Shown: piece after piece, positions 1-57,797 of the stretch | Layout: each line of letters begins with the position of its first letter | Position numbering within the stretch: the first letter of the stretch is position 1 | IMG/VR virus record: IMGVR_UViG_3300046167_000749 | Span: 1 to 63,523 of that record | Reading direction: 5' to 3' (one strand) | Source: a virus | DNA: 63,523 nt | Notes under the pieces: generated by a model | The model's input: the letters and a program-made list of their open reading frames with translations, nothing else | The model's database searches: none | Told to the model about the DNA's origin: nothing | Translations under genes and position numbers: made by a program

Positions 1-182
1 ATTGGGTCTATAAAAGGTTTTTCGAAGAACCATAGGCGTGATATTGATGGCGAGAAAGGTATGGAATGATGATTATTCGACATATCATGTTCCAATTAAG
101 GAAAATGAACATAACTTACCTCCTGGTTATTATGATCGAATAATGGAGGCAGTAAAAAACTGATCCAATTGAAGAAGCTAGA

Positions 183-524
183 ATGGTAAGAGGGGAGTGG
201 ATAGATCGCCCTGCGGGTGATGCTATATTTGGTCCATACTACAATAAGGCACTACACGAAGTTGGGGATTCAAAAACAGGAATCGTTCCAAATACAGAAT
301 TTCCAATTCTTGTTGGATGGGATCCTGGATCTGTAAATAATGCAGTAATATTTATGCAAGCCCTCCCCGGTAGTGATAGAACCATATGGACGGTGTTTGA
401 TGAGTTTGTAACAATAAACAAAAAACTTCCTTACACCACGATAATACCATTAGTAATGAGAAAAATGGCTTATTGGAATTCGCAAGTGCGAGCACGAGTT
501 TACATTTCAACATGTGTCAGATAA
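183..524 (+). CDS. terL: Terminase large subunit, nuclease-domain fragment 1 (frame-disrupted gene, 5' part off the window)
   Basis: This is part of the packaging motor's large subunit. The peptide has RGEWIDRPAGDAIFGPYY followed by LVGWDPGSVNNAVIFMQ; the GWDPG segment fits the first acidic motif of the RNase H-like terminase nuclease. The gene starts upstream of the window. In-frame terminase-like sequence (KVWNDDYSTYHVPIKENEH) runs through 59-160 and joins this fragment if one extra T at 161 is removed. The apparent ATG at 183 is therefore internal, not a start. At about 485 the frame is lost again. The ATPase half (Walker A and B) is not in the window. Confidence 0.75.
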   Translation: MVRGEWIDRPAGDAIFGPYYNKALHEVGDSKTGIVPNTEFPILVGWDPGSVNNAVIFMQALPGSDRTIWTVFDEFVTINKKLPYTTIIPLVMRKMAYWNSQVRARVYISTCVR

Positions 525-745
525 TTCTGCATTTAATCAATTTAGGGCTAAAACTGGGTCATATGATGTTAAGGACATCGAGGAAATATATAGATCTAAG
601 GGCAGAGACTTTTGATTTACCAACATTTAAAATGAGGGCGTGTCCAAAATTTCAAGGATCGGTTGAGTCTAGGGTGAGACTTACCATAGGAAAACTTCAA
701 AACGATCAGTTTATCGGTAAGCACTCAATGTACAGCAATAGTTAA
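473..745 (+). CDS. terL: Terminase large subunit, fragment 2 (frame-disrupted)
   Basis: This is a continuation of terminase. Frame +1 at 487-613 reads CEHEFTFQHVSDNSAFNQF...YRSKGRDF. After one extra T in the TTTT run at 610-613, the frame beginning at 614 continues DLPTFKMRACPKFQGSVESRV. Only the 3' part of the long ORF (from 614) is therefore real terminase, and the ATG at 473 is spurious. Another +1 shift near 715-720 moves the coding frame into the next fragment. Confidence 0.6.
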   Translation: MEFASASTSLHFNMCQIILHLINLGLKLGHMMLRTSRKYIDLRAETFDLPTFKMRACPKFQGSVESRVRLTIGKLQNDQFIGKHSMYSNS

Positions 746-746
746 G

Positions 747-986
747 ATGTTTAAAAATTTAGTTTCAGAAAAACAGGGAAAATCTTACGATCCAAATATT
801 TCATTCAAACCTAAGAGAAGTGTCTATGTACACCCATTTGATGCAATGTCGTATGTGTTCCTTTATTATGATGCATCATTTTCAACTCCCGCCACTCAAG
901 TGAAAACTGAAATCATGGACATTGGGTGCTTGATTTTTGTAACACGAAAACATAAGTTTCAGTTATGCATATGGAATCAGTTGTAA
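747..986 (+). CDS. terL: Terminase large subunit, fragment 3 / C-terminus (frame-disrupted)
   Basis: This is the C-terminal end of terminase. KPKRSVYVHPFDAMSYVFLYY contains the D-A-x-x-Y motif typical of the last catalytic acidic residue of the terminase nuclease. In-frame residues upstream of the ATG (STQCTAIVK) show that 747 is internal. A further shift near 920 would give a natural end at about 952, just before the next gene's ATG at 965. The 38-residue tail of the long ORF is then an artefact. Confidence 0.6.
   Translation: MFKNLVSEKQGKSYDPNISFKPKRSVYVHPFDAMSYVFLYYDASFSTPATQVKTEIMDIGCLIFVTRKHKFQLCIWNQL
939..960 (+). promoter_or_regulatory. Degenerate GTAAC-N12 bipartite element
   Basis: GTAACACGAA occurs at 939, and 17 nt later GTTTC at 956, five bases before the ATG at 965. 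It resembles the eight better copies elsewhere in the window, but its second box is poor and it overlaps the terminase end. Confidence 0.3.
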
Positions 987-1150
987 ATATGGACCTAGAA
1001 ATGTTTCCAGATATACTGGATATGTTGGAAGGTGTTAGTGTGGGTGATGTAGTTAAGATCAGCGGATCGTTCCAGGTTAAGGAACTTACGGATAAAAGAT
1101 TTACAGGATCTTTTGAGGACAAAAAGGGGAATTACCATTACCCCACATGA
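965..1150 (+). CDS. Small virion-region protein with acidic tail (frame-disrupted)
   Basis: I do not recognise the family. It starts MHMESVVNMDLEMFPDILDMLEG. Near 1125 the frame shifts. In the alternative frame the protein continues ITITPHEDKTDTDEDKTEESEVDDEEEETAG to about 1220, a strongly acidic tail that makes better sense than the NYHYPT end. The intact product would be about 90-100 residues. It lies between terminase and portal, where small packaging-related or connector proteins are often found. Confidence 0.45.
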   Translation: MHMESVVNMDLEMFPDILDMLEGVSVGDVVKISGSFQVKELTDKRFTGSFEDKKGNYHYPT

Positions 1151-1222
1151 AGATAAAACAGATACGGACGAAGACAAGACCGAAGAATCCGAAGTCGACG
1201 ACGAAGAGGAAGAAACTGCCGG

Positions 1223-1474
1223 GTGGAATCCTCCTATACAACGTCTGCTTCTATTGCGATTGATGCTCACTATGAGCAGTTAAACATTAAGAGAAGATGG
1301 AATAAAGATAGGGTAGATAGATTATGCGGGTTTTTAAACATAAACTACGGGGAACTTTCCTCCCCTCGTACACGAGAGGCATACCAACTTCCTCAAAAAA
1401 ATATATTCAACAAAATCGTTCGATGGTCCTCTTGCCCTCTTACTAACTATTTTGGAGCACAGGTATCTAAGTAA
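1223..1474 (+). CDS. Small protein before portal (frame-disrupted)
   Basis: The family is not recognised. The frame gives IAIDAHYEQLNIKRRWNKDRVDRLCGFLNINYGEL. After a shift near 1365 the coding potential continues in another frame (LVHERHTNFLKKIYS...YTKDTINNLFKF) to a stop at about 1511, eight bases before the portal ATG. The region 965-1511 could be one or two genes; the number of shifts prevents a firm reconstruction. Confidence 0.4.
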   Translation: MESSYTTSASIAIDAHYEQLNIKRRWNKDRVDRLCGFLNINYGELSSPRTREAYQLPQKNIFNKIVRWSSCPLTNYFGAQVSK

Positions 1475-1518
1475 CTACACTAAAGATACCATCAATAATC
1501 TATTTAAATTTTAATAAA

Positions 1519-1833
1519 ATGGTTAATAAGGACATACTAAAAAAATACGGATGCACACCTGAGCGACTACGTGACATTTTTACAGCAAAAGAGGGTGGAG
1601 AAAATTGGGACATAAGAGAAAAGTTTCAAGACCTTATACAGTCTAGGATACTTGAAGGCATTCGTTCGTGCGCGAGTCATGCAAAATTGTATATGTCTGT
1701 AGATATGGCATGGGATTCCATTCCAATTAATAAATCTACAATTCCGTTATTACAGTATGCACAAGGTAAGATTTCAATAGATCAGTGTCACGATAAACTT
1801 CAAGACCTCGAGGTTGCCGATAAATTTTTGTGA
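1519..1833 (+). CDS. Portal protein, N-terminal fragment (frame-disrupted)
   Basis: This is the portal, the dodecameric ring at the capsid vertex, called from its position between terminase and scaffold and from the reconstructed length of about 760 residues over 1519-3803. The fragment begins MVNKDILKKYGCTPERLRDIF and reads into WDSIPINKSTIPLLQYAQG. The frame shifts by +1 near 1815, in the overlap with the next fragment. The ATG at 1519 is the likely true start, with only A/T-rich DNA upstream and no Shine-Dalgarno sequence. Confidence 0.6.
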   Translation: MVNKDILKKYGCTPERLRDIFTAKEGGENWDIREKFQDLIQSRILEGIRSCASHAKLYMSVDMAWDSIPINKSTIPLLQYAQGKISIDQCHDKLQDLEVADKFL

Positions 1834-2341
1834 ATACGGAGATGAGGGTCAGCTTAAAAGCGTAAATGCACTTAGATTATATGAAGTTTCAATTAACTTA
1901 ATTAGATCTTATGTAACTAGAAGGGTTGCCGCACAAAGTCATAGGTTTAGTAACCTTTATCCGTATTTTAAATACGAACCAAGGAGTACACAACTTGCAG
2001 ACAAACTTCGTGCGGATGTATTATCCCAGAGAGTAGAAATGATGGTAGATCAGTTTGGCTACAGACATCAATTTGAGCAAATTATTCGACAGATGTTTAT
2101 GTACGGACATTCTGTTGCTTTTCCAGATGCATCATGGACTGAAGACATTCAATGGAAAATGTCCAAGGATGATATAACGGGCGAAGATAGGATGGAATCT
2201 CATGTTGAGAAAAGCGGAGTTAGATTTGTAACTCCCCACCCAACGCGAGTAATTAGAGACACATCTAAACCTTTGCATGATGTAAATAATAACCATGGTC
2301 CCGAATGGATAGGGTTTTGGGATATAGTAAGATATGGGTGA
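1814..2341 (+). CDS. Portal protein, fragment 2 (frame-disrupted)
   Basis: Continues the portal with FCEYGDEGQLKSVNALRLYE, INLIRSYVTRRVAAQ and the wing/clip-like FEQIIRQMFMYGHSVAFPDASW. It ends when the frame shifts again at about 2335 (DIVRYG | DIHNNPATW). The nominal start at 1814 is internal to the gene. Confidence 0.6.
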   Translation: MPINFCEYGDEGQLKSVNALRLYEVSINLIRSYVTRRVAAQSHRFSNLYPYFKYEPRSTQLADKLRADVLSQRVEMMVDQFGYRHQFEQIIRQMFMYGHSVAFPDASWTEDIQWKMSKDDITGEDRMESHVEKSGVRFVTPHPTRVIRDTSKPLHDVNNNHGPEWIGFWDIVRYG

Positions 2342-2798
2342 CATTCATAATAATCCAGCAACATGGAATACGGATGAGATTAGCGTAACAAACAGCTTAT
2401 CAAGCCTTTATAAAGAACACTCTGATTTCTTTGGTTACTATTTTGGAGATGATATAGTATTTCCGAAGATAGGGGATCAGTTTTCATTTCAGAACGAAAG
2501 AGTTGCCACGACAGGCTTATACGCATCTGAAGATGACGATAAAGGAATGTTCGTTACTCAAATGTGCATGAAGGTAAACCCAAAAAGAGACGGATTGGGC
2601 GACTACCCTCATGATGTTTGGTTAAAGTTTACAGTAGCTAGTGATCAGACTGTTGTTTACGCGGAATATCTACCTTCACTTCCAGCTATTTACGGTGGTA
2701 TCAATGAGAATGATCGATCGCATGGCGAATATATCAGTAGCTCACGAAATCATGCCGTATCAAGATCAGTTGACCCAACATACTTAGTTCATGCTTGA
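2334..2798 (+). CDS. Portal protein, fragment 3 (frame-disrupted)
   Basis: The middle of the portal, including SLYKEHSDFFGYYFGDDIVFP and VWLKFTVASDQTVVYAEYLPSLPAIYGG. After 2798 the coding sequence continues in short pieces in changing frames (MLEHMKMSMFKIFAIDQDALDDDV at about 2789-2890; SEDTFYSKPKALFYSGQKAAAPWY at about 2890-2960) up to the fragment beginning at 2985, so at least two more shifts lie in 2790-2985. Confidence 0.6.
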   Translation: MGDIHNNPATWNTDEISVTNSLSSLYKEHSDFFGYYFGDDIVFPKIGDQFSFQNERVATTGLYASEDDDKGMFVTQMCMKVNPKRDGLGDYPHDVWLKFTVASDQTVVYAEYLPSLPAIYGGINENDRSHGEYISSSRNHAVSRSVDPTYLVHA

Positions 2799-2984
2799 GC
2801 ACATGAAAATGAGTATGTTTAAGATATTCGCTATAGACCAAGACGCACTTGATGATGATGTTAAGGATTATATTAAAGACGCCACTATCTGAGGACACTT
2901 TCTATTCAAAACCAAAAGCATTATTTTACTCAGGGCAAAAAGCTGCAGCACCTTGGTATTAACTCACAAGACTTTATTAAAGTT

Positions 2985-3803
2985 GTGGATGTGCAAAAAG
3001 AACTTTCCGCTGGTGTTAACCAGTCTATTCAAGCGATCCTCCAGTTGCTTAATCTCGTCGAGCGTATGCTGATCCTGTCTCCTCAAGAGCTGGGTCAGCC
3101 CGCTCCAAGAGAAATTAGTGCTACGGAAGTTGCTGAGATAAGTAACACAACGAATGCTATCTACTCCTTTATATCAGAAGGGATTGACGACATGAGATCT
3201 GCGATGAAGAAAGTTCTATATGAACATTTAGTCACATGCTCAAATGATAAATTCATTGTACCAATCAAAGGTCGGTATTCAGAAAACATAATTAGAGAAG
3301 CTGGATTTGAGGTTGAAACTTCAGGTGATGAAAAGATGAGTAAAAGGAATGTTATCGGGAATCCACAAACATTGGTTTACGAATATTTATTTGGAGCGAG
3401 AGATGGTGCCGAACGAGCTAGAGATACTCAGTCCGCTCAAACATTAGGTCAAATATTAATGCAACTATTGCAAGTACCAGATATGGCTCAGGCATTAGGT
3501 CGTGAGCGTATATTTGAAATGTTTAATGAGATATTCAGAATGTCAGGTGCGCACGATCTTAAACTTGAAACAGACGAGATGGATCAAGAGCAAGAGTTGC
3601 AAAATGTAGGCAATGACCAATTTATAAGTAAACTTAAAGAGCAATGGCCAGATGTGTTAAAGGCAATACAAGCACTTATCTCTAAGGAAGCGAAAATGGA
3701 AGATTTACAAGAAGGAGAGGTTGCACCAGGAGTATCAGCTCAACCTCAACCCGAACCAAATCAACAAGCAATAACATCACCAGACCAACAAACTAATATA
3801 TGA
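2985..3803 (+). CDS. Portal protein, C-terminal fragment (frame-disrupted)
   Basis: The C-terminal part of the portal: long amphipathic helices (VNQSIQAILQLLNLVERM) and APREISATEVAEISNTTNAI, a motif also seen in C-terminal regions of podovirus-type portals. It has a glutamate/glutamine-rich tail and ends overlapping the scaffold start at 3800 (ATGA-type overlap). The first codon at 2985 is GTG within the gene rather than a genuine start. Confidence 0.65.
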   Translation: MDVQKELSAGVNQSIQAILQLLNLVERMLILSPQELGQPAPREISATEVAEISNTTNAIYSFISEGIDDMRSAMKKVLYEHLVTCSNDKFIVPIKGRYSENIIREAGFEVETSGDEKMSKRNVIGNPQTLVYEYLFGARDGAERARDTQSAQTLGQILMQLLQVPDMAQALGRERIFEMFNEIFRMSGAHDLKLETDEMDQEQELQNVGNDQFISKLKEQWPDVLKAIQALISKEAKMEDLQEGEVAPGVSAQPQPEPNQQAITSPDQQTNI

Positions 3804-5329: not shown

Positions 5330-7207
5330 ATGGCAACAAACTCATCTCTTCCAACTCCTGGTGTATCAGGAGCAAATACAGGTCAAATTGGCGAACCTTT
5401 AGTTCGTAACCCAGGTATTGGGCGTATAATCAAAGTAGATGATTCTACTGGTTGCACGCTTACTAATGCTTCAATCAAGGGTCTTACACCTAATGAGTTT
5501 GAGGCTTTGAGTAATAAAGAGATAGATTTGGCTCGCGTGATAGCAAACTCCGCTGAAGCAAATATGCTTGGAGTTCAAGAGCGTGGACTTACCACACTTC
5601 TTAATAGTTCAATTACAAACATTAAACCCCTTATTAATAAGGTAAATGTTGCTGAACAATCCATGATTCTTCCATACATTCAGCGCCGTCAGCGTTCTGT
5701 AATGAATGCGAATTACTTTACTGTTAGTGCAAATACTGCCGCAGACGGAACTTCTGCATCTGATGCAGCATATAATGTAGATGCAGCTGATGACGGAGAT
5801 CGCGTTCTTCGCGTAGACCTTGGAGCATCAGATTGGGCTTCAGGTAGTGTTACTGGAATTGAAAGATATTTCTTACCAGGTGGATTCTTAGTTTTTAATG
5901 GCTGGGATAGCACAGGAGCGGCAGTTGAAGTACAATTTAAAATATTGGGATCAGCTGCAGTTAGTAATGCAATTTCAATGGCTGATGTTACTGTTCGCCC
6001 AATTGGAGCGGATATTAAACAAGCTACTATTTCGAGTGGTCAAGAGTCTAGTGGATTCACTGCATCAAATTGGTCTTCTTATGTTGGTAAGGGTGACTAC
6101 GAGCTTGCCGTAGGTGTTATTCAAACAATTGCTAACAATGTTAATGACTTTGAAGAATGGTGCCGTAACCAACCAACCGACTTGAGCGTCAAGCTGATTG
6201 TCAACTGGTTGCAAACCACTCGTGAGTCTCGTCAAGTAGATGAGTCTTACAAGGAAACACTCGCTAAGGTGATGTCCGGTAAGGTTAATCCTTATCTTAA
6301 ATCCATGGTTTATCAGCCTTTAGCTGAGCAAAACAAAATTGCCGCTAAAGCATCGAATGACCAATGGACAAGAGGTGTTTGGTACAACCAAGCTCTTTCT
6401 GATAAGCAGACCCCTGAGACTTACATGCAATTGCCTGCAGTAACTGACCCAGAGGACAATGCTTGCACATTAGAATATAAATCTAATGCCCTTGGTATTA
6501 AATCCCTACTCCGTGAATCAAACCGTATTAAGGACAACTTGGGTGCCGCTCTTACGATTGATTCACTTATGGCTGATCTTTATTACCTAAAGAGAAATCG
6601 CGAGCAAGATGGTTCATCAGTAAGTGTTATTGACTGCATGACCGATCGCTTTACTTACAATCTCTTTTATGAGAAAATGGCTACCTACTACAAGAACAAG
6701 TACGGCATCGATTCATTCACTCGTAACATGCAGTTGAATCAGCAGATCAAGCATGATGGACTTGTTTTATTTAACTACTCACTCTACGACCTTCCTGAAG
6801 TTGGTTGTCAGTTAGCAGTTTTCCATGATCCATACTTTGATGATCTTCTAAATGTAGGTGGAGCACTCTTTGGTTCAGCTGTTGATCCTAGTGGTGGTAA
6901 GCTCTGGAATGCCGATGGAACTCGTTCATCAACTGATGTAATGGGTGACTCTGCTGGCCAAACTGCATACCAAAAGTCTGCAAGGTGTTTATGGTTTATC
7001 GATTGGTCTGATATTAAGATTGGAATTGCTGGTACGAATGCGATCACACGCAAGCAACCACATCCTGATACAGATCGTCTTTACAAGTGTCGCATGGCTC
7101 ATAAGGAGACTGAGTACTCCCTTCGATCCACTACATGGACAACCATGATGGATGTGCCTGCTCGTCACTTGTTGATTGAGAATTTTGACTTAGATTTAAC
7201 ACTGTAA
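5330..7207 (+). CDS. Major capsid protein
   Basis: 625 residues, intact. Called from position immediately after scaffold, its own upstream regulatory element and terminator-isolated transcription, and overall character: a soluble alpha/beta protein with an N-terminal arm, SMILPYIQRRQRSVMNANYF, a Gly/Ser/Asp-rich inserted domain (about residues 130-230) and a long helical core (VKLIVNWLQTTRESRQVDESYKE region). No specific HK97 motif can be proven by eye. The ATG at 5330 follows A/T-rich sequence with no Shine-Dalgarno. A different structural role is possible but less likely. Confidence 0.75.
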   Translation: MATNSSLPTPGVSGANTGQIGEPLVRNPGIGRIIKVDDSTGCTLTNASIKGLTPNEFEALSNKEIDLARVIANSAEANMLGVQERGLTTLLNSSITNIKPLINKVNVAEQSMILPYIQRRQRSVMNANYFTVSANTAADGTSASDAAYNVDAADDGDRVLRVDLGASDWASGSVTGIERYFLPGGFLVFNGWDSTGAAVEVQFKILGSAAVSNAISMADVTVRPIGADIKQATISSGQESSGFTASNWSSYVGKGDYELAVGVIQTIANNVNDFEEWCRNQPTDLSVKLIVNWLQTTRESRQVDESYKETLAKVMSGKVNPYLKSMVYQPLAEQNKIAAKASNDQWTRGVWYNQALSDKQTPETYMQLPAVTDPEDNACTLEYKSNALGIKSLLRESNRIKDNLGAALTIDSLMADLYYLKRNREQDGSSVSVIDCMTDRFTYNLFYEKMATYYKNKYGIDSFTRNMQLNQQIKHDGLVLFNYSLYDLPEVGCQLAVFHDPYFDDLLNVGGALFGSAVDPSGGKLWNADGTRSSTDVMGDSAGQTAYQKSARCLWFIDWSDIKIGIAGTNAITRKQPHPDTDRLYKCRMAHKETEYSLRSTTWTTMMDVPARHLLIENFDLDLTL

Positions 7208-50865: not shown

Positions 50866-51023
50866 TATTTATATTGTATTTTAATTATTATTGCTTCTAT
50901 TCCTTTTGTTATTAAATGAGCTACTGCTTTGGTAGCGTCATTGTGTGTGTATAGTAATGTCTCTTGTGTAGAGGTATCGCATAAGCAATATCCCATACTA
51001 GAGACAAGGTATCGTGTGGTCAT
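50865..51023 (-). CDS. 52-residue small protein between the UVR-motif gene and the helicase
   Basis: MTTRYLVSSMGYCLCDTSTQ, then DATKAVAHLITKGIEAIIIK. The start overlaps the upstream stop as ATGA (51020-51023) and the stop overlaps the helicase start as TAATG. Both couplings strongly support a real gene. Function unknown. Confidence 0.6.
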   Translation of the reverse strand: MTTRYLVSSMGYCLCDTSTQETLLYTHNDATKAVAHLITKGIEAIIIKIQYK

Positions 51024-51352
51024 AAATATCTAAAAAAGTCTTTGATGTGCTTACTAATGTGGCGCCCACTCCAAGGGCTCTTACCTTGCTTTAGGTGCTT
51101 AATGAAATCTCGAATAAGTGCAGCTTGCTCGTAATCTTCATACTTAATTGCTTTCTGCATACCTTTCTCGTAGCGGTTGACTTCAGCGGCTTGGGACTTA
51201 CGTTTCCACTCATCCATATACTCCTTTAGTGTCATGCCTTTGAGTGAAGCTAAGTATGTGAAGTGTTTATTGTTTGCTTCTACGAGTCTCTTGCGTGACT
51301 TAATTGGATCGTATCCTTGACTTGGCATAATTATATTTTTACCGGGTTGCAT
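51020..51352 (-). CDS. UVR-motif protein
   Basis: 110 residues. The basic N-terminus is followed by a C-terminal helical hairpin, KGMQKAIKYEDYEQAALIRD, then FIKHL, a good match to the UVR motif (E-x-YE-x-AA-x-x-RD-x-I) used by UvrB, UvrC and related proteins for protein-protein contact. The start overlaps the ThiF gene end by 22 bases, so it is coupled to the cassette. Confidence 0.65.
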   Translation of the reverse strand: MQPGKNIIMPSQGYDPIKSRKRLVEANNKHFTYLASLKGMTLKEYMDEWKRKSQAAEVNRYEKGMQKAIKYEDYEQAALIRDFIKHLKQGKSPWSGRHISKHIKDFFRYL

Positions 51353-52005
51353 ATTCCTTCATCTGTATCAAAGAATACGCCCCGAACCTTTAGGCTCTCC
51401 CACCTCAGCAGGCGCCAAATAAGGTTCAGGGCGTTTATAGCAACCACACTATTAACAAATAGATCTTGCACGAAGTATTCATCTACGCATCCAACCTCAC
51501 CTACCGGTTCCTCTCCGTAGATCAAGTCGTTGTGCTCGTCATATACATTAGGTAAGTCTCCGTCGAATTGACCGATCAAGACTTGTCCTGATGTGCGTGA
51601 ATTGCCACAATCAATCATGTAGGCTCCCTTAGTAAGCCATGACTTAGCTATATCTTCACGAGACTTAATAGTATCTACGCACGAAACAATCATATCATCT
51701 TTTGATGATGAAGGTGCTTTTACTGTGCGATACTTCCAGTTTAGTTGGTAGTACGCATTTACTCTATCGATCAGAATCTTGGCTTTATTGTGGCCAACAT
51801 CTGATGGGAAGAATGCCTGCCTGCCAATATTAGCAGGAGATACCGTGTCAAAGTCATAAGCTGTGACATATATCTCAGGCTTCCTTCTTTGTTTTTGAGC
51901 ATGATTAATACGGGCAAGTCCATTAATCATCTGACTGCCTGTACCACCACACCCATATACGGATATGTTTCTTATATTTTTCTTTAATCTATGCATTGTA
52001 TCCAT
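51331..52005 (-). CDS. PRTRC-type ThiF: E1-like adenylating enzyme
   Basis: 224 residues. The Rossmann nucleotide loop is GCGGTGS at 18-24; YDFDTVSPANIGRQ carries Asp51/Asp53, Asn59 and Arg62, the E1/ThiF ATP-binding residues; SCVDT lies at 108-112; and Cys173 in VGCVDEYFVQDLFVN sits where PRTRC ThiF proteins have a conserved Cys followed by QDLFIN. NIGRQ-F-P-DVG-NKA and the GVFFDT end are diagnostic for the PRTRC ThiF group. Expected reaction: ATP-dependent adenylation of a ubiquitin-like C-terminus (protein C upstream). Overlaps protein B by 22 bases. Confidence 0.85.
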   Translation of the reverse strand: MDTMHRLKKNIRNISVYGCGGTGSQMINGLARINHAQKQRRKPEIYVTAYDFDTVSPANIGRQAFFPSDVGHNKAKILIDRVNAYYQLNWKYRTVKAPSSSKDDMIVSCVDTIKSREDIAKSWLTKGAYMIDCGNSRTSGQVLIGQFDGDLPNVYDEHNDLIYGEEPVGEVGCVDEYFVQDLFVNSVVAINALNLIWRLLRWESLKVRGVFFDTDEGICNPVKI

Positions 52006-52607
52006 TCTGTAAGTGTTTTGTTAATTTCCTTAAGGTGGTTGCGCCTCTTGGGTTGGTAGTTAAATCCGCTATTGAAGAATGTTCTCTCCCACTCCTCCCA
52101 ACAATGCCAGGGAAGTGAGTATGCGAACTCAGGATTGTTTAGTGTTACATTGCATGATCCCATTGCAGATGAACCTCCATGCACATCAATACTTCGATAG
52201 GGCAACTCTAGTAGCTTTGTTGAATCTGCGGAGTATGAATCAGTATTCGACCGATCAAAGTCAATCGGCAGGACAGCAACACTAAGCGTGTCATGCCCGT
52301 GACTTCTTGTTACTTTGAATACTAGATGTGGATGACTGTAAACCCCTACCTTATTCTTAACTTTAATTGGTCGTCGAGCGGGTTTGCATGTCCATATCAT
52401 GCACAAGTTTTCTTCATACCATAGCATCTGTGGTGGCAAGACTATCGGTTCTGATGCTTGCCCTTCTACTAGATCCTTCATATCTTCAGATGATAATGGT
52501 CGTGGGTTTACCCATTCCTCATCTTTCTTATCGAATAGTACGCACATCGATCTACTTCTATCTCGGTAAACCATTATGCTTTGCTTCGCTTCAATTAAGT
52601 CTGTCAT
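51984..52607 (-). CDS. PRTRC protein B-like (proposed E2-like partner)
   Basis: 207 residues. The family-typical blocks are LPPQMLWYEENLCMIWTCKP, ARRPIKVKN...SHPHLVFKV, LSVAVLPID and WERTFFNSGFNY near the C-terminus. Protein B has been proposed to have an E2-like fold. In the usual G-x-V-C-x-G segment the corresponding GGSSAMG appears to have Ala148 in place of the Cys, with Cys152 four residues later. That alignment is by eye. Overlaps protein F by 17 bases and ThiF by 22. Confidence 0.75.
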   Translation of the reverse strand: MTDLIEAKQSIMVYRDRSRSMCVLFDKKDEEWVNPRPLSSEDMKDLVEGQASEPIVLPPQMLWYEENLCMIWTCKPARRPIKVKNKVGVYSHPHLVFKVTRSHGHDTLSVAVLPIDFDRSNTDSYSADSTKLLELPYRSIDVHGGSSAMGSCNVTLNNPEFAYSLPWHCWEEWERTFFNSGFNYQPKRRNHLKEINKTLTEWIQCID

Positions 52608-53541
52608 GTGATAAGTATTTTAATAGTCTCGCGAACGGTCCAACTGAGTACAGAGTGTCCTCAATTTCCGTCGCGTTGTGACATGGAGGTATACAGGTTG
52701 AGTATAAGTGTTCCTGTTGGTAGATAATCATGTCATCCAGCACCATCCATGTTGGATCTGATGCTTGACCCATGTCGGGATTACCCTCAAGTACCTCGAG
52801 CCTGTGTTGCGCATCGTATTGCTGTTGGCACACGAACATCTCCATTGTCTTGTTGAGCATAGGCTCAAACCCATACCAAGAGCATGTTGCGATTGGCCAA
52901 TACCCAACCTCTTCACCTTCAGATGTAGCAGCAAGAAAGCTTTGAGATAAAGCTCGCGGTAGGCAGTCCTCGATTAGTTTAGATAGGTTGTAGGGTAAAC
53001 CTTTTGGAACCTCGCTGAACACTTTATGTTTATGTGCAAAGCTAGGAAGTAGACCAGTGCGTCGTTTCTTTTTATCTTTATCACCAACCCTGCCTAGGTG
53101 TTCATACATATCGACTAGATACTCATCGATATATTCAGGTGTCATTATCCATGCCGGACTACGTGACAATAGATCGATTAGCTCGGAGCCTATGCCGTGG
53201 TACTTTTCGAGTAGCTCTAGTCGAGGACCAATTGCAAACTGACTTCCATCATTAAACGTATTGGCTACAGGTATAATACTGCCATCATATAATTGAGCAT
53301 CTTCAATTAGCACACTGAATATTCCATCAGTATAAGATTTAAACAGATCGGTTAGTCTCTGATCTTTTACGCAATTATTTGTGTTCTCATATCGTAGGCC
53401 AGTGTCGCGTACAACTTTGATAGACTGAGGTAATGCCCATGGTGTTTCTAAAACAGGGGTGGGCAGGCACGGGGAGTAAACCTCCCCGTACCTTTTGTTT
53501 GTTTCAGCCTTAACCCTATTTGGGATGAGAATTTCAAGCAT
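52591..53541 (-). CDS. PRTRC protein F-like
   Basis: 316 residues. FAIGPRLELLEKYHGIGSEL followed by MTPEYIDEYLVDMYEHLG and later YWPIATCSWYGFEP match the general pattern of PRTRC protein F (PRL-LE, GLG, TP, WYG blocks). Function unknown in any host. It starts six bases after protein C's stop and is part of the same overlapping series. Confidence 0.65.
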   Translation of the reverse strand: MLEILIPNRVKAETNKRYGEVYSPCLPTPVLETPWALPQSIKVVRDTGLRYENTNNCVKDQRLTDLFKSYTDGIFSVLIEDAQLYDGSIIPVANTFNDGSQFAIGPRLELLEKYHGIGSELIDLLSRSPAWIMTPEYIDEYLVDMYEHLGRVGDKDKKKRRTGLLPSFAHKHKVFSEVPKGLPYNLSKLIEDCLPRALSQSFLAATSEGEEVGYWPIATCSWYGFEPMLNKTMEMFVCQQQYDAQHRLEVLEGNPDMGQASDPTWMVLDDMIIYQQEHLYSTCIPPCHNATEIEDTLYSVGPFARLLKYLSHDRLN

Positions 53542-53547
53542 CTTCCC

Positions 53548-53760
53548 TTAACCTTTAGTACCGTATGATCCTTCGATTTTATAGACTTCTTCACCTTTGG
53601 ATATTGTCGGGCTAGAGATTTCTCCCTTGGTTAGTGATGGATACTGTCGTGAGTAATGCCTTACCACCTCTTCAGGTGTCATGTTCCTCCCTGGATCTTC
53701 AAGTGTTCGTTCGCCGAATTTGAATATTCTAGGTAATGGTTTCATTCCTTCATCTGTCAT
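53548..53760 (-). CDS. PRTRC protein C: small ubiquitin-like protein
   Basis: 70 residues. RIFKFGERTLEDPGRNMTPE, VVRHYSRQYPSL and a C-terminus GSYGTKG match the PRTRC C pattern (R-F-G-L-DP-P-EEV--YA-QYP-L ... GTKG). The family is proposed to have a ubiquitin-like fold whose exposed C-terminus could be the target of ThiF adenylation. The final residue is Gly with no trailing extension, so no processing peptidase would be needed. Start overlaps the upstream stop (TAATG). Confidence 0.8.
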   Translation of the reverse strand: MTDEGMKPLPRIFKFGERTLEDPGRNMTPEEVVRHYSRQYPSLTKGEISSPTISKGEEVYKIEGSYGTKG

Positions 53761-54056
53761 TAATTAAACTCCTTTTCTACTGATTGTTGTAATGCTTCTT
53801 GTTCGTGTGACTCTAATTTATCCCACCAATGGGGAACTTTATCCGTATTGGATGGATTGAGTCTTTGCTCAGGATACTCAACCGTGCCATTTGTGCCGTC
53901 TCCACCCACTGGTGTGGGACTGGTGGATTCATTTACAAAAGCCCATAGCTTTGAGTATAGTGATCGATGTTGTGTATCCGTAAGGAATTGCTTGTAAGGT
54001 AAGCATTCAGCTACCTCATCAGCCGTCCAACGTGATATTCTTTCTGGATAACTCAT
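53760..54056 (-). CDS. Unknown protein within the PRTRC cassette (first insert)
   Basis: 98 residues: RISRWTADEVAECLPYKQFL, LYSKLWAFVNEST, and WDKLESHEQEALQQSVEKE. Not a PRTRC family I recognise. Two such genes lie between E and C, where standard cassettes have C directly after E. Confidence 0.6.
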   Translation of the reverse strand: MSYPERISRWTADEVAECLPYKQFLTDTQHRSLYSKLWAFVNESTSPTPVGGDGTNGTVEYPEQRLNPSNTDKVPHWWDKLESHEQEALQQSVEKEFN

Positions 54057-54285
54057 GTTTTCTCCTTTGTTTCTTTTGTCGATTGCGCATTAATTTAAGC
54101 ACGATGAGTGATTCCTCATTGGTCATACGATTGCGTAGGTGCGTTGGTATGTCCGTGATAGTTAGAACTCCTCGTAGGCTAGTCGGGCATTGATCTAATA
54201 GATCAACGACCTCGTAACCCAAAGAGATTATGTCTCCAATCTTCATTGGCTCACCGCCAGTGAATCCCGTCGTTGTGTTACTCAC
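54019..54285 (-). CDS. Unknown protein within the PRTRC cassette (second insert)
   Basis: 88 residues, MSNTTTGFTGGEPMKIGDII, then ITDIPTHLRNRMTNEESL, ending very basic (NRQKKQRRKHELSRKN). It overlaps protein E by four bases (ATGA) and the next gene by 38 bases. Not recognised. Confidence 0.6.
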   Translation of the reverse strand: MSNTTTGFTGGEPMKIGDIISLGYEVVDLLDQCPTSLRGVLTITDIPTHLRNRMTNEESLIVLKLMRNRQKKQRRKHELSRKNITLDG

Positions 54286-54866
54286 AGATCAATGCTACCT
54301 AGTCCTAACCCTAGTGGATCATCGCCGTCAGGTTTATCTTCTGCTGATTTCTCATTCAGCCTGTCGACAATCTTAGGTTGCTTGGTGACATTTGATACAT
54401 CAGGGGTGATTTCAGTATCAAGTCGATTAGCTTCCTCTGCGGGTGGCTTCTCATCCTTGCGTTCCTCGGCTTGCTTGGCACGAGCAGCTTCACGCTTCTC
54501 GGCTTCAAGTTGTGCTTTAGTCTTACGCTTCGGAGCAGGCTTCTTGCCTGTAGCTTTCGCCTTGAGTTCCTTGGTCAAAGCATCAGACTCGAGCTTCATC
54601 TGTTTGGCAATATTCACCATACTCGTTGTACCCTCAGACATGACATGTACATACAAGAGTATATCCTTAACAACTTTCTCGTTAGTAAGGTTATCCTTAT
54701 TGTATCTTTGCATGTATCGCTGTTCGAGCACACCCTTGGTTTTATCAGACACCTTGGTATCCGCATTGTACTCAGGGAATACATAAACCCATATGTCATC
54801 ACCATCTAGCTCTAGGTCTAGCTTGAGTTTGTGTGTAGCAAGTAGTGGAATCAGTTGTTCAATCAT
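54282..54866 (-). CDS. PRTRC protein E-like
   Basis: 194 residues. The N-terminal MIEQLIPLLATHKLKLDLEL, then WVYVFPEYNAD fit the start of PRTRC protein E (LA-LL...V-L-L...V-V-PK). A low-complexity charged middle (KATGKKPAPKRKTKAQLEAE) and C-terminus GDDPLGLGLGSIDL follow. Call is by N-terminal pattern and position at the head of the cassette. Function unknown. Confidence 0.6.
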   Translation of the reverse strand: MIEQLIPLLATHKLKLDLELDGDDIWVYVFPEYNADTKVSDKTKGVLEQRYMQRYNKDNLTNEKVVKDILLYVHVMSEGTTSMVNIAKQMKLESDALTKELKAKATGKKPAPKRKTKAQLEAEKREAARAKQAEERKDEKPPAEEANRLDTEITPDVSNVTKQPKIVDRLNEKSAEDKPDGDDPLGLGLGSIDL

Positions 54867-55578
54867 TTTTAATTTCTTTTAGTTTCTTATCAATAGTGTC
54901 GTTGACTGCCTTACCCATATTACTGAGTGCAGTGTGCATACCCTTGAGTGCCATAGTTAGCTTCTCGATCTTAGCCTCAGCATTGCTTTTGAACTCGATA
55001 AGCTCGTCGATCTTTTCCTGCAGATCGTTATCGGTAGCAGGACCGACAACGGATCGGGCAATATCCTCGATCGCCTCACGCATCTTAACTATTGGATGAA
55101 CTTCATCCGTGGCAGGCTTAGGCTTAGTGAGAGGCTTGCGAGGCTTGCTCTCTTTCTTGACGATTGCAACACCTTCGGGGTCAGGCTTAGGGGTAGGGGC
55201 AGGTGGTATATTTGGCGTTGGGTCTTGCTCTATGCGAGAAGGCTCAGATGGAGCTGACTCGGCAGGAACTTGATCGAACTCACCATCTTGCAATCGCTTT
55301 ATCCATGCCTCGTATTGCGAGCTTTTGAGATCAAGAAAGAACTTCTTGCGCTCGTCGGGGTCACGAGGTGGATCACCTTTCCATAGTGGATTGGAAGAAC
55401 CATCTGCAAGTGTAGACTTGTTGTATTGTTCGCCTGTCTCATCGCCAACATAGAATGCAATATGAAGGAGCGAAGGGCTCAGTGCTTTGAGTGCTTGATC
55501 TGTGAATCGTGCTTGTACTCCTTGTCCGAACTTAGTGTTACGATCGGTGAGTACTTCCTGTAGTTTTATTTCGTTCAT
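54859..55578 (-). CDS. Protein with Pro-rich linker and C-terminal coiled coil
   Basis: 239 residues. The N-terminal globular part (MNEIKLQEVLTDRNTKFGQG, SPSLLHIAFYVGDETG) is followed by a proline-rich linker (TPNIPPAPTPKPDPEG) and a coiled coil (LQEKIDELIEFKSNAEAKIE, KLTMALKGMHTALSNMGKAV). Overlaps protein E by eight bases. It may belong functionally to the cassette; not recognised. Confidence 0.6.
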   Translation of the reverse strand: MNEIKLQEVLTDRNTKFGQGVQARFTDQALKALSPSLLHIAFYVGDETGEQYNKSTLADGSSNPLWKGDPPRDPDERKKFFLDLKSSQYEAWIKRLQDGEFDQVPAESAPSEPSRIEQDPTPNIPPAPTPKPDPEGVAIVKKESKPRKPLTKPKPATDEVHPIVKMREAIEDIARSVVGPATDNDLQEKIDELIEFKSNAEAKIEKLTMALKGMHTALSNMGKAVNDTIDKKLKEIKND

Positions 55579-56871: not shown

Positions 56872-57186
56872 TTAATCCTCCATTTCTTTTAGTTGTCTTA
56901 TTAGTGTTAGTGCTTCTCGCAATTGGTGTGGGTTTGGCAGTATGTCCCACGATAAGTTAGCTAAAGCTAATTCAAGTATTAACTCAGTTCTGCTTATCTG
57001 CCACCCACGCTTAGAGTCGATGAGCTTGCATGTGTTTCTTATTTTATCTGCACATACTTTAAGGATAGGGTGCGTATCATTCTCAGCCCTCCTCCATGTG
57101 GCTATACTTACGGATGCTTTTTCCGATGCATTGATCTGTGAAAGGTCATGCCTCTCGCGAAATGCTTTTAGGTCTACCCCTCGCAT
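56872..57186 (-). CDS. HTH (XRE-like) DNA-binding regulator
   Basis: 104 residues. FRERHDLSQINASEKASVSI, then ATWRRAENDTHPI has the helix-turn-helix pattern of Cro/CI-like regulators (S-Q...A---VS--TWRR-E). A C-terminal helical region may dimerise. A natural candidate to bind the repeated GTAAC elements, but no evidence links them. Overlaps the upstream stop at 57186. Confidence 0.7.
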   Translation of the reverse strand: MRGVDLKAFRERHDLSQINASEKASVSIATWRRAENDTHPILKVCADKIRNTCKLIDSKRGWQISRTELILELALANLSWDILPNPHQLREALTLIRQLKEMED

Positions 57187-57797
57187 TATCTACCAAATGA
57201 ACAGGTTACTGGAACTAGTTTATTGAGGGCAATATCTTGATCCTCGGTTAGTGTGGTGCGTCCTTCATGGAAACTAGATTGTACTCTATTCTTTACGTCT
57301 ACCTCCACTACATCTACACCAAGCATGGTGTTGACTGCGAGTATATGCTCCGCGATTGCATCTTGCTTGTCCGTGGGAACAAGAGAGAAATCAACCTTAG
57401 CAGATATATTGCGTGTAATATGGGCATCAACAAACTGATCGCCTGTAATTGCTTTTACCTTATCAAGGGTAGAGTCATCAAAGGTAGAATACCCATGCTC
57501 TCTTACATTTACAGTAGTAGTATGCTCAGTCCCTCCTACATTAGCAGTAAACTTGAACTGCTTTGGTCTGTCTGATGCACGATTACTCAGTAGTTTTGCA
57601 ACTACCTGCTGATATAATCTGCGTGCTTTGCCGAACATTGCTTCACCCTCTTTCTTCAGTGCTTTACCTTGGAAGTGGGATGCAACAAGTGCGTGGTTTG
57701 GGTCGGTGTCAGCAACTTCAATGATCTCAATCCGATCCCCGGATGAAGTTTCTGGTGCTTTGGTTTGTGCTTTCTTTGTTAGTGCGTCTAGGCTCAT
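57186..57797 (-). CDS. Protein of unknown function, early operon
   Basis: 203 residues. MSLDALTKKAQTKAPETSSG, then a helix with KARRLYQQVVAKLLSN and a beta-rich second half (FTANVGGTEHTTTVNVRE, ISAKVDFSLVPTDKQ). No motif recognised. Confidence 0.65.
   Translation of the reverse strand: MSLDALTKKAQTKAPETSSGDRIEIIEVADTDPNHALVASHFQGKALKKEGEAMFGKARRLYQQVVAKLLSNRASDRPKQFKFTANVGGTEHTTTVNVREHGYSTFDDSTLDKVKAITGDQFVDAHITRNISAKVDFSLVPTDKQDAIAEHILAVNTMLGVDVVEVDVKNRVQSSFHEGRTTLTEDQDIALNKLVPVTCSFGR

Follow-up and report, generated by a model that had tools for sequence, protein, structure and literature searches.

PRTRC-type cassettes, covered by the profiles TIGR03734–TIGR03742, were predicted in 2006 and correspond to operon type 6d of Iyer et al. 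(PMC1779556). In these operons, the E2-like protein B carries a motif, N-x(~7)-C-x-G, which resembles the HPN...C of classical E2s and is accompanied by a conserved His after the Cys (PMC1779556). The literature that we searched contained no demonstrated PRTRC chemistry or function and no paper on PRTRC in phages; the PRTRC matches were plasmid and genome papers, as judged mostly by title.

Here, we describe such a locus in the 63,523-nt IMG/VR virus record IMGVR_UViG_3300046167_000749, analyzed over its full length and referred to as the window. The locus is a real PRTRC-type cassette, minimal and divergent, that belongs to a clade of temperate phages; it is not a complete PRTRC system. We consider it fairly probable that the five genes E-C-F-B-ThiF form a minimal (type 6d) cassette for conjugation of a ubiquitin-like protein (Ubl), which temperate phages bear as an accessory unit of their replication/early region.

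Gene content and phage setting

From position 54866 down to 51331, the minus strand encodes E, two small ORFs, C, F, B and ThiF (Table 1). Reading frames overlap in the pairs E/ORF, ORF/ORF, ORF/C, F/B and B/ThiF, C and F are separated by 6 nt, and no terminator-like site was found on the minus strand within 51331–54866. The gene order, strand and overlaps or few-base gaps reported in an earlier note on this DNA were all recovered among the ORFs of the interval. The note's placement in a phage early operon was borne out to the extent that the tight run adjoins DNA-metabolism genes (a SNF2 helicase and, in relatives, a clamp loader). Its description of a complete set holds in part: E1-like, Ubl and E2-like genes do lie in one tight run, but a full PRTRC set would also have JAB (A), D and ParB, none of which is present.

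Table 1. Cassette genes and neighboring features in the window
Feature	Position (nt)	Strand	Basis
PRTRC E-like, 194 aa	54282..54866	-	TIGR03741 E 0.076; relatives' profiles
ORF of 88 aa between E and C	54019..54285	-	no counterpart in relatives
ORF of 98 aa between E and C	53760..54056	-	no counterpart in relatives
C, ubiquitin-like, 70 aa, GTKG at stop	53548..53760	-	PF14454 59.0 bits
F-position protein, 316 aa	52591..53541	-	position, clade alignment
B, E2-like, 207 aa	51984..52607	-	PF14460 33.7 bits
ThiF, E1-like adenylyltransferase, 224 aa	51331..52005	-	TIGR03736 177.5 bits
UVR-motif protein, 110 aa; overlaps ThiF by 22 nt	51020..51352	-	PF02151 26.4 bits > 21.5
SNF2-type DNA helicase, 886 aa	48205..50865	-	PF00176 62.8 bits; phrog_62 DNA helicase
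'U', 239 aa, conserved upstream neighbor	54859..55578	-	in relatives between clamp-loader gene and E
'X', 203 aa, cassette-associated	57186..57797	-	recurs at cassettes of relatives

Elsewhere, the window encodes an integrase and a virion structural protein (phrog_3287). The product of positions 5330–7207, probably the capsid protein to judge from its position, shares 61–71% identity with proteins of related IMG/VR phages and had no match among 50,697 GenBank phages.

Relatives of the cassette were found by pattern scans of viral contigs with a tight ThiF alignment; single-protein ThiF scans of viral and genome contigs returned no relative, and a 13-sequence ThiF alignment was too diverse for scanning. 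The resulting clade comprises L016 (80.8-kb record), L017, L018 (80.6 kb), L100, L136 and the pair L133/L140, which have the same scores and coordinates throughout and were counted as one. The order E-C-F-B-ThiF is repeated in five contigs besides the window (L016, L018, L100, L133/L140 and L136, with F of L136 assigned by position only); L017 begins inside F and therefore shows F-B-ThiF only. Most cassette relatives share the capsid-type protein (64–71% identity) and carry a recognizable TerL. Every clade cassette lies upstream of a SNF2-type helicase gene, and in L016, L018, L100 and L133 a clamp-loader-like gene and U are located just upstream of the cassette. X directly follows ThiF in L017 and L018 and sits between E and C in L100 and L133, and the UVR-motif gene has no counterpart at the same place in L016. 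Between E and C, relatives have either no gene or one different gene, and the two window ORFs found there lie outside the conserved core.

Neither the window nor any of six related records encodes a JAB protein A (TIGR03735), and ParB (TIGR03734) and D (TIGR03739) are missing from the window and four related records, the sole ParB match being a negligible one of 10 bits in record G006; the related records lacking A, D and ParB extend to 81 kb. Nor did a JAMM-motif search reveal a substitute protease in the window; in the relatives it retrieved only a RadC-like protein, in L016 and, by HMM, in L136. Absence of ParB, D and A is what a decaying, functionless plasmid remnant picked up by a phage might display. 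However, the five ORFs are intact, their place is conserved, and in all five cassette genes third codon positions differ most when relatives are compared, as under purifying selection. Plasmids, too, often have cassettes without A (L006, L010, L011, L013), and we disfavor decay as hardly credible. In a sister phage, L138 (record G012), whose capsid-type protein is 61% identical, no ThiF was present in 62 kb and other small ORFs occupy the space between the clamp-loader homologue and the helicase. This marks the cassette as accessory, though the L138 record may be a fragment.

Components of the putative conjugation pathway

ThiF scored 177.5 bits against TIGR03736 (cut-off 144.75; E 2.8e-52), confirming its earlier designation as the PRTRC E1-like protein. 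Alignment with 12 plasmid and phage homologues revealed an intact GxGGTGS loop and conservation of D51, N59, R62, Q63, K74, D111 and C173, the last being the family's invariant Cys and the candidate catalytic Cys of ThiF; adenylation residues and invariant Cys are also kept throughout the ThiF proteins of the phage clade. Competence of ThiF and the C terminus of C for adenylation is thus predicted, with strong support from sequence.

The best PDB matches of the ThiF profile were UBA6, UBA1 and NEDD8 E1, i.e. ubiquitin and NEDD8 E1s rather than ThiF/MoeB. These matches weigh against a sulfur carrier, in which a thiocarboxylate on C would donate sulfur to a nucleotide, a cofactor or DNA and no protein would be tagged. 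An E1 of ThiF/MoeB type and PAPS-reductase-family genes near four PRTRC loci (L010, L013, L032, L106) would suit such a role, but wherever C and ThiF occur here, an E2-like gene goes with them, and no rhodanese or other sulfur gene is among the listed phage-clade neighbors. We therefore rate sulfur transfer as very unlikely.

The ubiquitin-like nature of C, adopted in the earlier note, gained support from Prok_Ub (PF14454; 59.0 bits, cut-off 25), while the PRTRC profile TIGR03738 was missed by 0.15 bit (45.8 vs. 45.95). Its orthologues mostly pass that threshold: those of L016, L133 and L136 do (the three scores being 52.9, 61.9 and 49.9 bits), with L018 failing at 38.4 bits. The protein ends in ...GSYGTKG directly at the stop, without a pro-tail. 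An AlphaFold2 model of C adopts a beta-beta-alpha-beta-beta arrangement with a disordered tail (mean pLDDT 77.5), and Foldseek returned only weak matches, several of the top ones being UBL, PB1, SUMO or GB1 beta-grasp folds. The proposed ubiquitin fold is accordingly only consistent with the model, the structure matches being weak; sequence searches of C and B against solved structures yielded nothing useful.

B matched Prok-E2_D (PF14460; 33.7 bits, cut-off 25) and fell below the cut-off of PRTRC_B (TIGR03737; 25.7 bits vs. 131.45), and the clade and family profiles for B aligned with an hhalign probability of 99.4. The family active site, GxICxG with a downstream His, is not found in the window B. 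Most clade members have lost the Asn, another residue stands in the column of the family Cys, and FTH has given way to FNY, FNK or FNQ. Instead, the window protein contains D141-V-H143...M149-G-S-C152 (D[VT]H...MGxC in the clade), and six clade B sequences share D-[VT]-H-x(6-8)-C without exception, with the Cys kept in all seven, L136 included. In classical E2s, the His lies at about –10 relative to the Cys, and clade B, where His precedes Cys by 7–9 residues, comes near this spacing. The AlphaFold2 model of B reached a pLDDT of 83.8, with low confidence in the motif region (residues ~141–160). Foldseek of this model against the PDB gave no confident E2 match (Atg10, an E2, ranked 35th at E 1.9), and a search of BFVD retrieved only uncharacterized phage proteins. 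The E2-like label put forward earlier thus stands on the Prok-E2_D match and the profile alignment, but not on a canonical active site or the TIGR03737 cut-off, and the structure search did not confirm an E2 fold.

Having lost the three residues of the predicted family active site (Asn, Cys and the His after it), B could be a pseudo-E2 or adaptor. In this rival explanation, B would be a catalytically dead, RWD-like E2, and either ThiF itself would transfer C or C would only be adenylated and held. Inactive E2-like domains are indeed known from operon type 6e (PMC1779556), and within the clade B is the faster-diverging protein, at ~40% identity against ~60% for ThiF and C. Yet one Cys at the same motif in seven of seven sequences, with the upstream His in six, is not expected of a dead enzyme, and we hold this alternative to be unlikely. 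The simpler view that B is dead for want of the family Cys was demoted to this rival, as six relatives keep the clade-specific Cys and five the upstream His. The new motif would fit an active site that has been rearranged, but equally a B that has lost its E2 function and is constrained in some other way; E2 activity of B may be called plausible, and an E2 step in the pathway would be moderately supported.

E was recognized through its relatives. While the window protein scored below the TIGR03741 cut-off (13.0 vs. 37.95 bits; E 0.076), its L133 orthologue passed it (49.3 bits), the clade profile aligned with a family profile from which the window had been left out (hhalign probability 96.6, E 5.8e-10), and the window E matched a purpose-built E profile, likewise made without the window, at E 1.1e-5. 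Around 75 N-terminal residues are conserved, followed by a Lys/Ala-rich tail. The F-like identity suggested before has position in its favor, yet homology to F is not recognizable by sequence: the protein had no HMM match, TIGR03742 included, and alignment of the clade with the family was marginal (hhalign P 0.0014, probability 17%), with position and length being right. It is nonetheless conserved in the phage clade (W222, H288, C193 and PF..L.KY.S). Taken over the PRTRC profiles named in the earlier note, only ThiF of the window exceeded its cut-off, C falling just short, B and E remaining below and F unmatched.

Tag maturation, proposed mechanism and possible role

JAB processing of the Ubl was predicted in 2006 (PMC1779556), and this prediction implies that a C-terminal tail on C should go together with A. 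We surveyed 93 loci in which C, B and ThiF occur together; some of these loci are overlapping pieces of one contig. A tail with A occurred in 63 loci, a tail without A in none, no tail with A in 12, and no tail without A in 18 (Fisher 1e-11). Collapsing at <60% identity, which is clustering rather than phylogenetic correction, left 7, 0, 7 and 13 loci in the same classes (p 0.006). In each of the 18 loci that lack JAB, the tag is thus mature as encoded, without residues past the terminal Gly. Confinement of tails to loci with JAB is what one would expect of a C that works through its free C-terminal Gly, and this rule provides independent, quantitative support for the prediction that C is a Ubl modifier, activated at its C-terminal Gly after maturation by A. 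It also explains why this phage needs no JAB: its C is encoded mature, ending at GTKG and the stop. Lacking a JAB, the cassette itself could not remove conjugates.

The conserved residues suggest a pathway in which ThiF would use bound ATP to adenylate C at Gly70, its exposed C-terminal residue, whereupon C would pass as a thioester to Cys173 of ThiF and then, in what is the weakest step, to Cys152 of the modified E2-like B. More speculatively, C might finally be attached to amino groups of target proteins, and F and E could act as accessory or targeting factors. For the cassette to work as a PRTRC system, either the altered E2 or ThiF by itself must be able to transfer C.

With the cassette situated beside helicase and clamp-loader genes, phage replication proteins or early host targets are the first candidates for modification. 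Neighboring genes, which on some plasmids include genes for DNA repair and replication, point to DNA replication as a process worth examining, although the statistics are thin. A sliding-clamp neighborhood is only modestly supported: PF02768 (sliding clamp) was present in three of 11 plasmid records, and dnaN lies close to the cassette in L007, L012, L015 and L113. Location between clamp loader and SNF2 helicase also underlies a bolder proposal, in which replication-fork proteins would be modified in functional analogy to SUMO or ubiquitin on the sliding clamp. That the phage runs such an irreversible, JAB-independent pathway, in which the tag is mature from the start and the E2 has shifted from the PRTRC layout (His after Cys) to one like that of classical E2s (His before Cys), we regard as quite unlikely in this full form.

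Alternatively, the cassette might serve defense or counter-defense, tagging host or rival-phage proteins for superinfection exclusion or interfering with CBASS- or Bil-type conjugation of the host. Related chemistry serves anti-phage defense in Bil (E1/E2/JAB/Ubl) and in type II CBASS (PMC11354881, PMC10449767), and an accessory cassette missing from a sister phage would suit this purpose. In contrast, none of the PADLOC defense models matched C or B, ThiF gave only weak, generic E1-E2 matches, and the location is a replication block and no obvious defense island. We see this role as possible, if on balance improbable; concerning purpose rather than chemistry, it can hold together with the conjugation pathway favored above. 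A five-gene, JAB-less phage version whose tag requires no processing makes it simple to test whether PRTRC really tags proteins, and the altered E2 motif offers an immediate mutational test.

Comparison with known systems

Like PRTRC systems at large, the window has ThiF, the Ubl C, the E2-like B and an E-like protein, in the relative order E-C-F-B-ThiF. Unlike them, it lacks A, D and ParB, its F is unrecognizable and its B motif is altered, and the cassette resides in a phage replication block rather than on a plasmid or island. The system occurs frequently on plasmids, with matches to the window ThiF in 348 PLSDB records.

The earlier note called a complete E1/Ubl/E2-like set co-transcribed with phage replication genes unusual. 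PRTRC cassettes are not unique to this phage: the full E-C-F-B-A-ThiF is present in Burkholderia phage BgVeeders33 (OK665841) and in dozens of (pro)phage contigs of ~40 kb from IMG/VR. In BgVeeders33, the complete set E-C-x-F-B-A-ThiF is not annotated as PRTRC, and IMG/VR contains many ~40-kb contigs of this kind (L019–L031, L058–L096). In the survey of co-occurrence proposed in the earlier note, both C and ThiF were matched only in BgVeeders33 and the putative fragment MT839883 among 50,697 GenBank phage records. The BgVeeders33 group resembles the window in its phage-borne E-C-(x)-F-B-(A)-ThiF, but differs in having JAB (A), a mostly tailed pro-C and a canonical B active site, and represents an unrelated phage lineage with other neighboring genes and a ThiF only ~35% identical.

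BilABCD and type II CBASS (Cap2/Cap3) share with the window E1/E2/Ubl-type chemistry, predicted in the case of the window, encoded on small operons. They employ other E1, E2 and Ubl families, contain a JAB, which in BilABCD processes the pro-Ubl, and have a demonstrated defense function.

JAB-less cassettes of plasmids (Pelobacter pPRO1, Alteromonas UM7, Tunicatimonas and Pseudomonas P105) have the same E-C-F-B-ThiF content without A as the window. They differ in their canonical B Cys motif and in the PRTRC ParB adjoining the cassette in three of the four; as in the window, their C ends at a mature Gly/Ala.

Genes flanking the cassette and an empty site in a sister phage

A gene whose product carries a UVR motif and weakly matches McsA overlaps the 3′ end of the ThiF gene, and the cassette-associated gene X lies upstream of the cassette (Table). 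Among related phage contigs of the same clade, gene X is likewise placed ~3 kb upstream of the cassette in L016, and within or adjoining it in L017, L018, L100 and L133. In two clade members (L016, L136), a RadC-like JAMM-fold protein is encoded beside the cassette and helicase, which could be a stand-in for JAB, or unrelated. The sister phage L138 (record G012) lacks the cassette between the clamp-loader homologue and the helicase; this interval is a natural empty-site counterpart for comparison.

Table: Coordinates of the features discussed
Feature	Location	Position
UVR-motif protein gene	window 51020-51352	overlaps ThiF 3′ end
Gene X	window 57186-57797	~3 kb upstream of cassette
RadC-like JAMM-fold protein	L016:13653-14102	adjoins cassette/helicase
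RadC-like JAMM-fold protein	L136:5467-5961	adjoins cassette/helicase
Interval without cassette	L138:7477-12400	clamp-loader homologue to helicase
Broken terminase/portal-like frames	window 1-3800	near contig end

Near the contig end, terminase- and portal-like reading frames are split across several frames, which may reflect either an assembly error or a real interruption; stop codons also fall inside the terminase matches of four relatives.

A second phage-borne gene set

In large phages (L003 and L036-L049), B-like (E2-like), A-like (JAB) and long ThiF genes stand side by side, with no recognisable C accompanying this triple, which is a second class of E1/E2/JAB borne by phages. In L003, Salmonella phage Arash (OQ632216), two of the three genes are annotated as 'structural protein'.

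Neighbours of other PRTRC loci

Elsewhere, PAPS-reductase-family genes occur near four PRTRC loci (L010, L013, L032, L106), and dnaN (sliding clamp) is found close to cassettes on plasmids or islands (L007, L012, L015, L113). Part of the cassettes in unrelated ~40-kb (pro)phage contigs (L019, L020, L023, L029, L031, L062, L064, L072-L075) carry a short ParB-like gene immediately after ThiF, unlike the full-length ParB of PRTRC systems.
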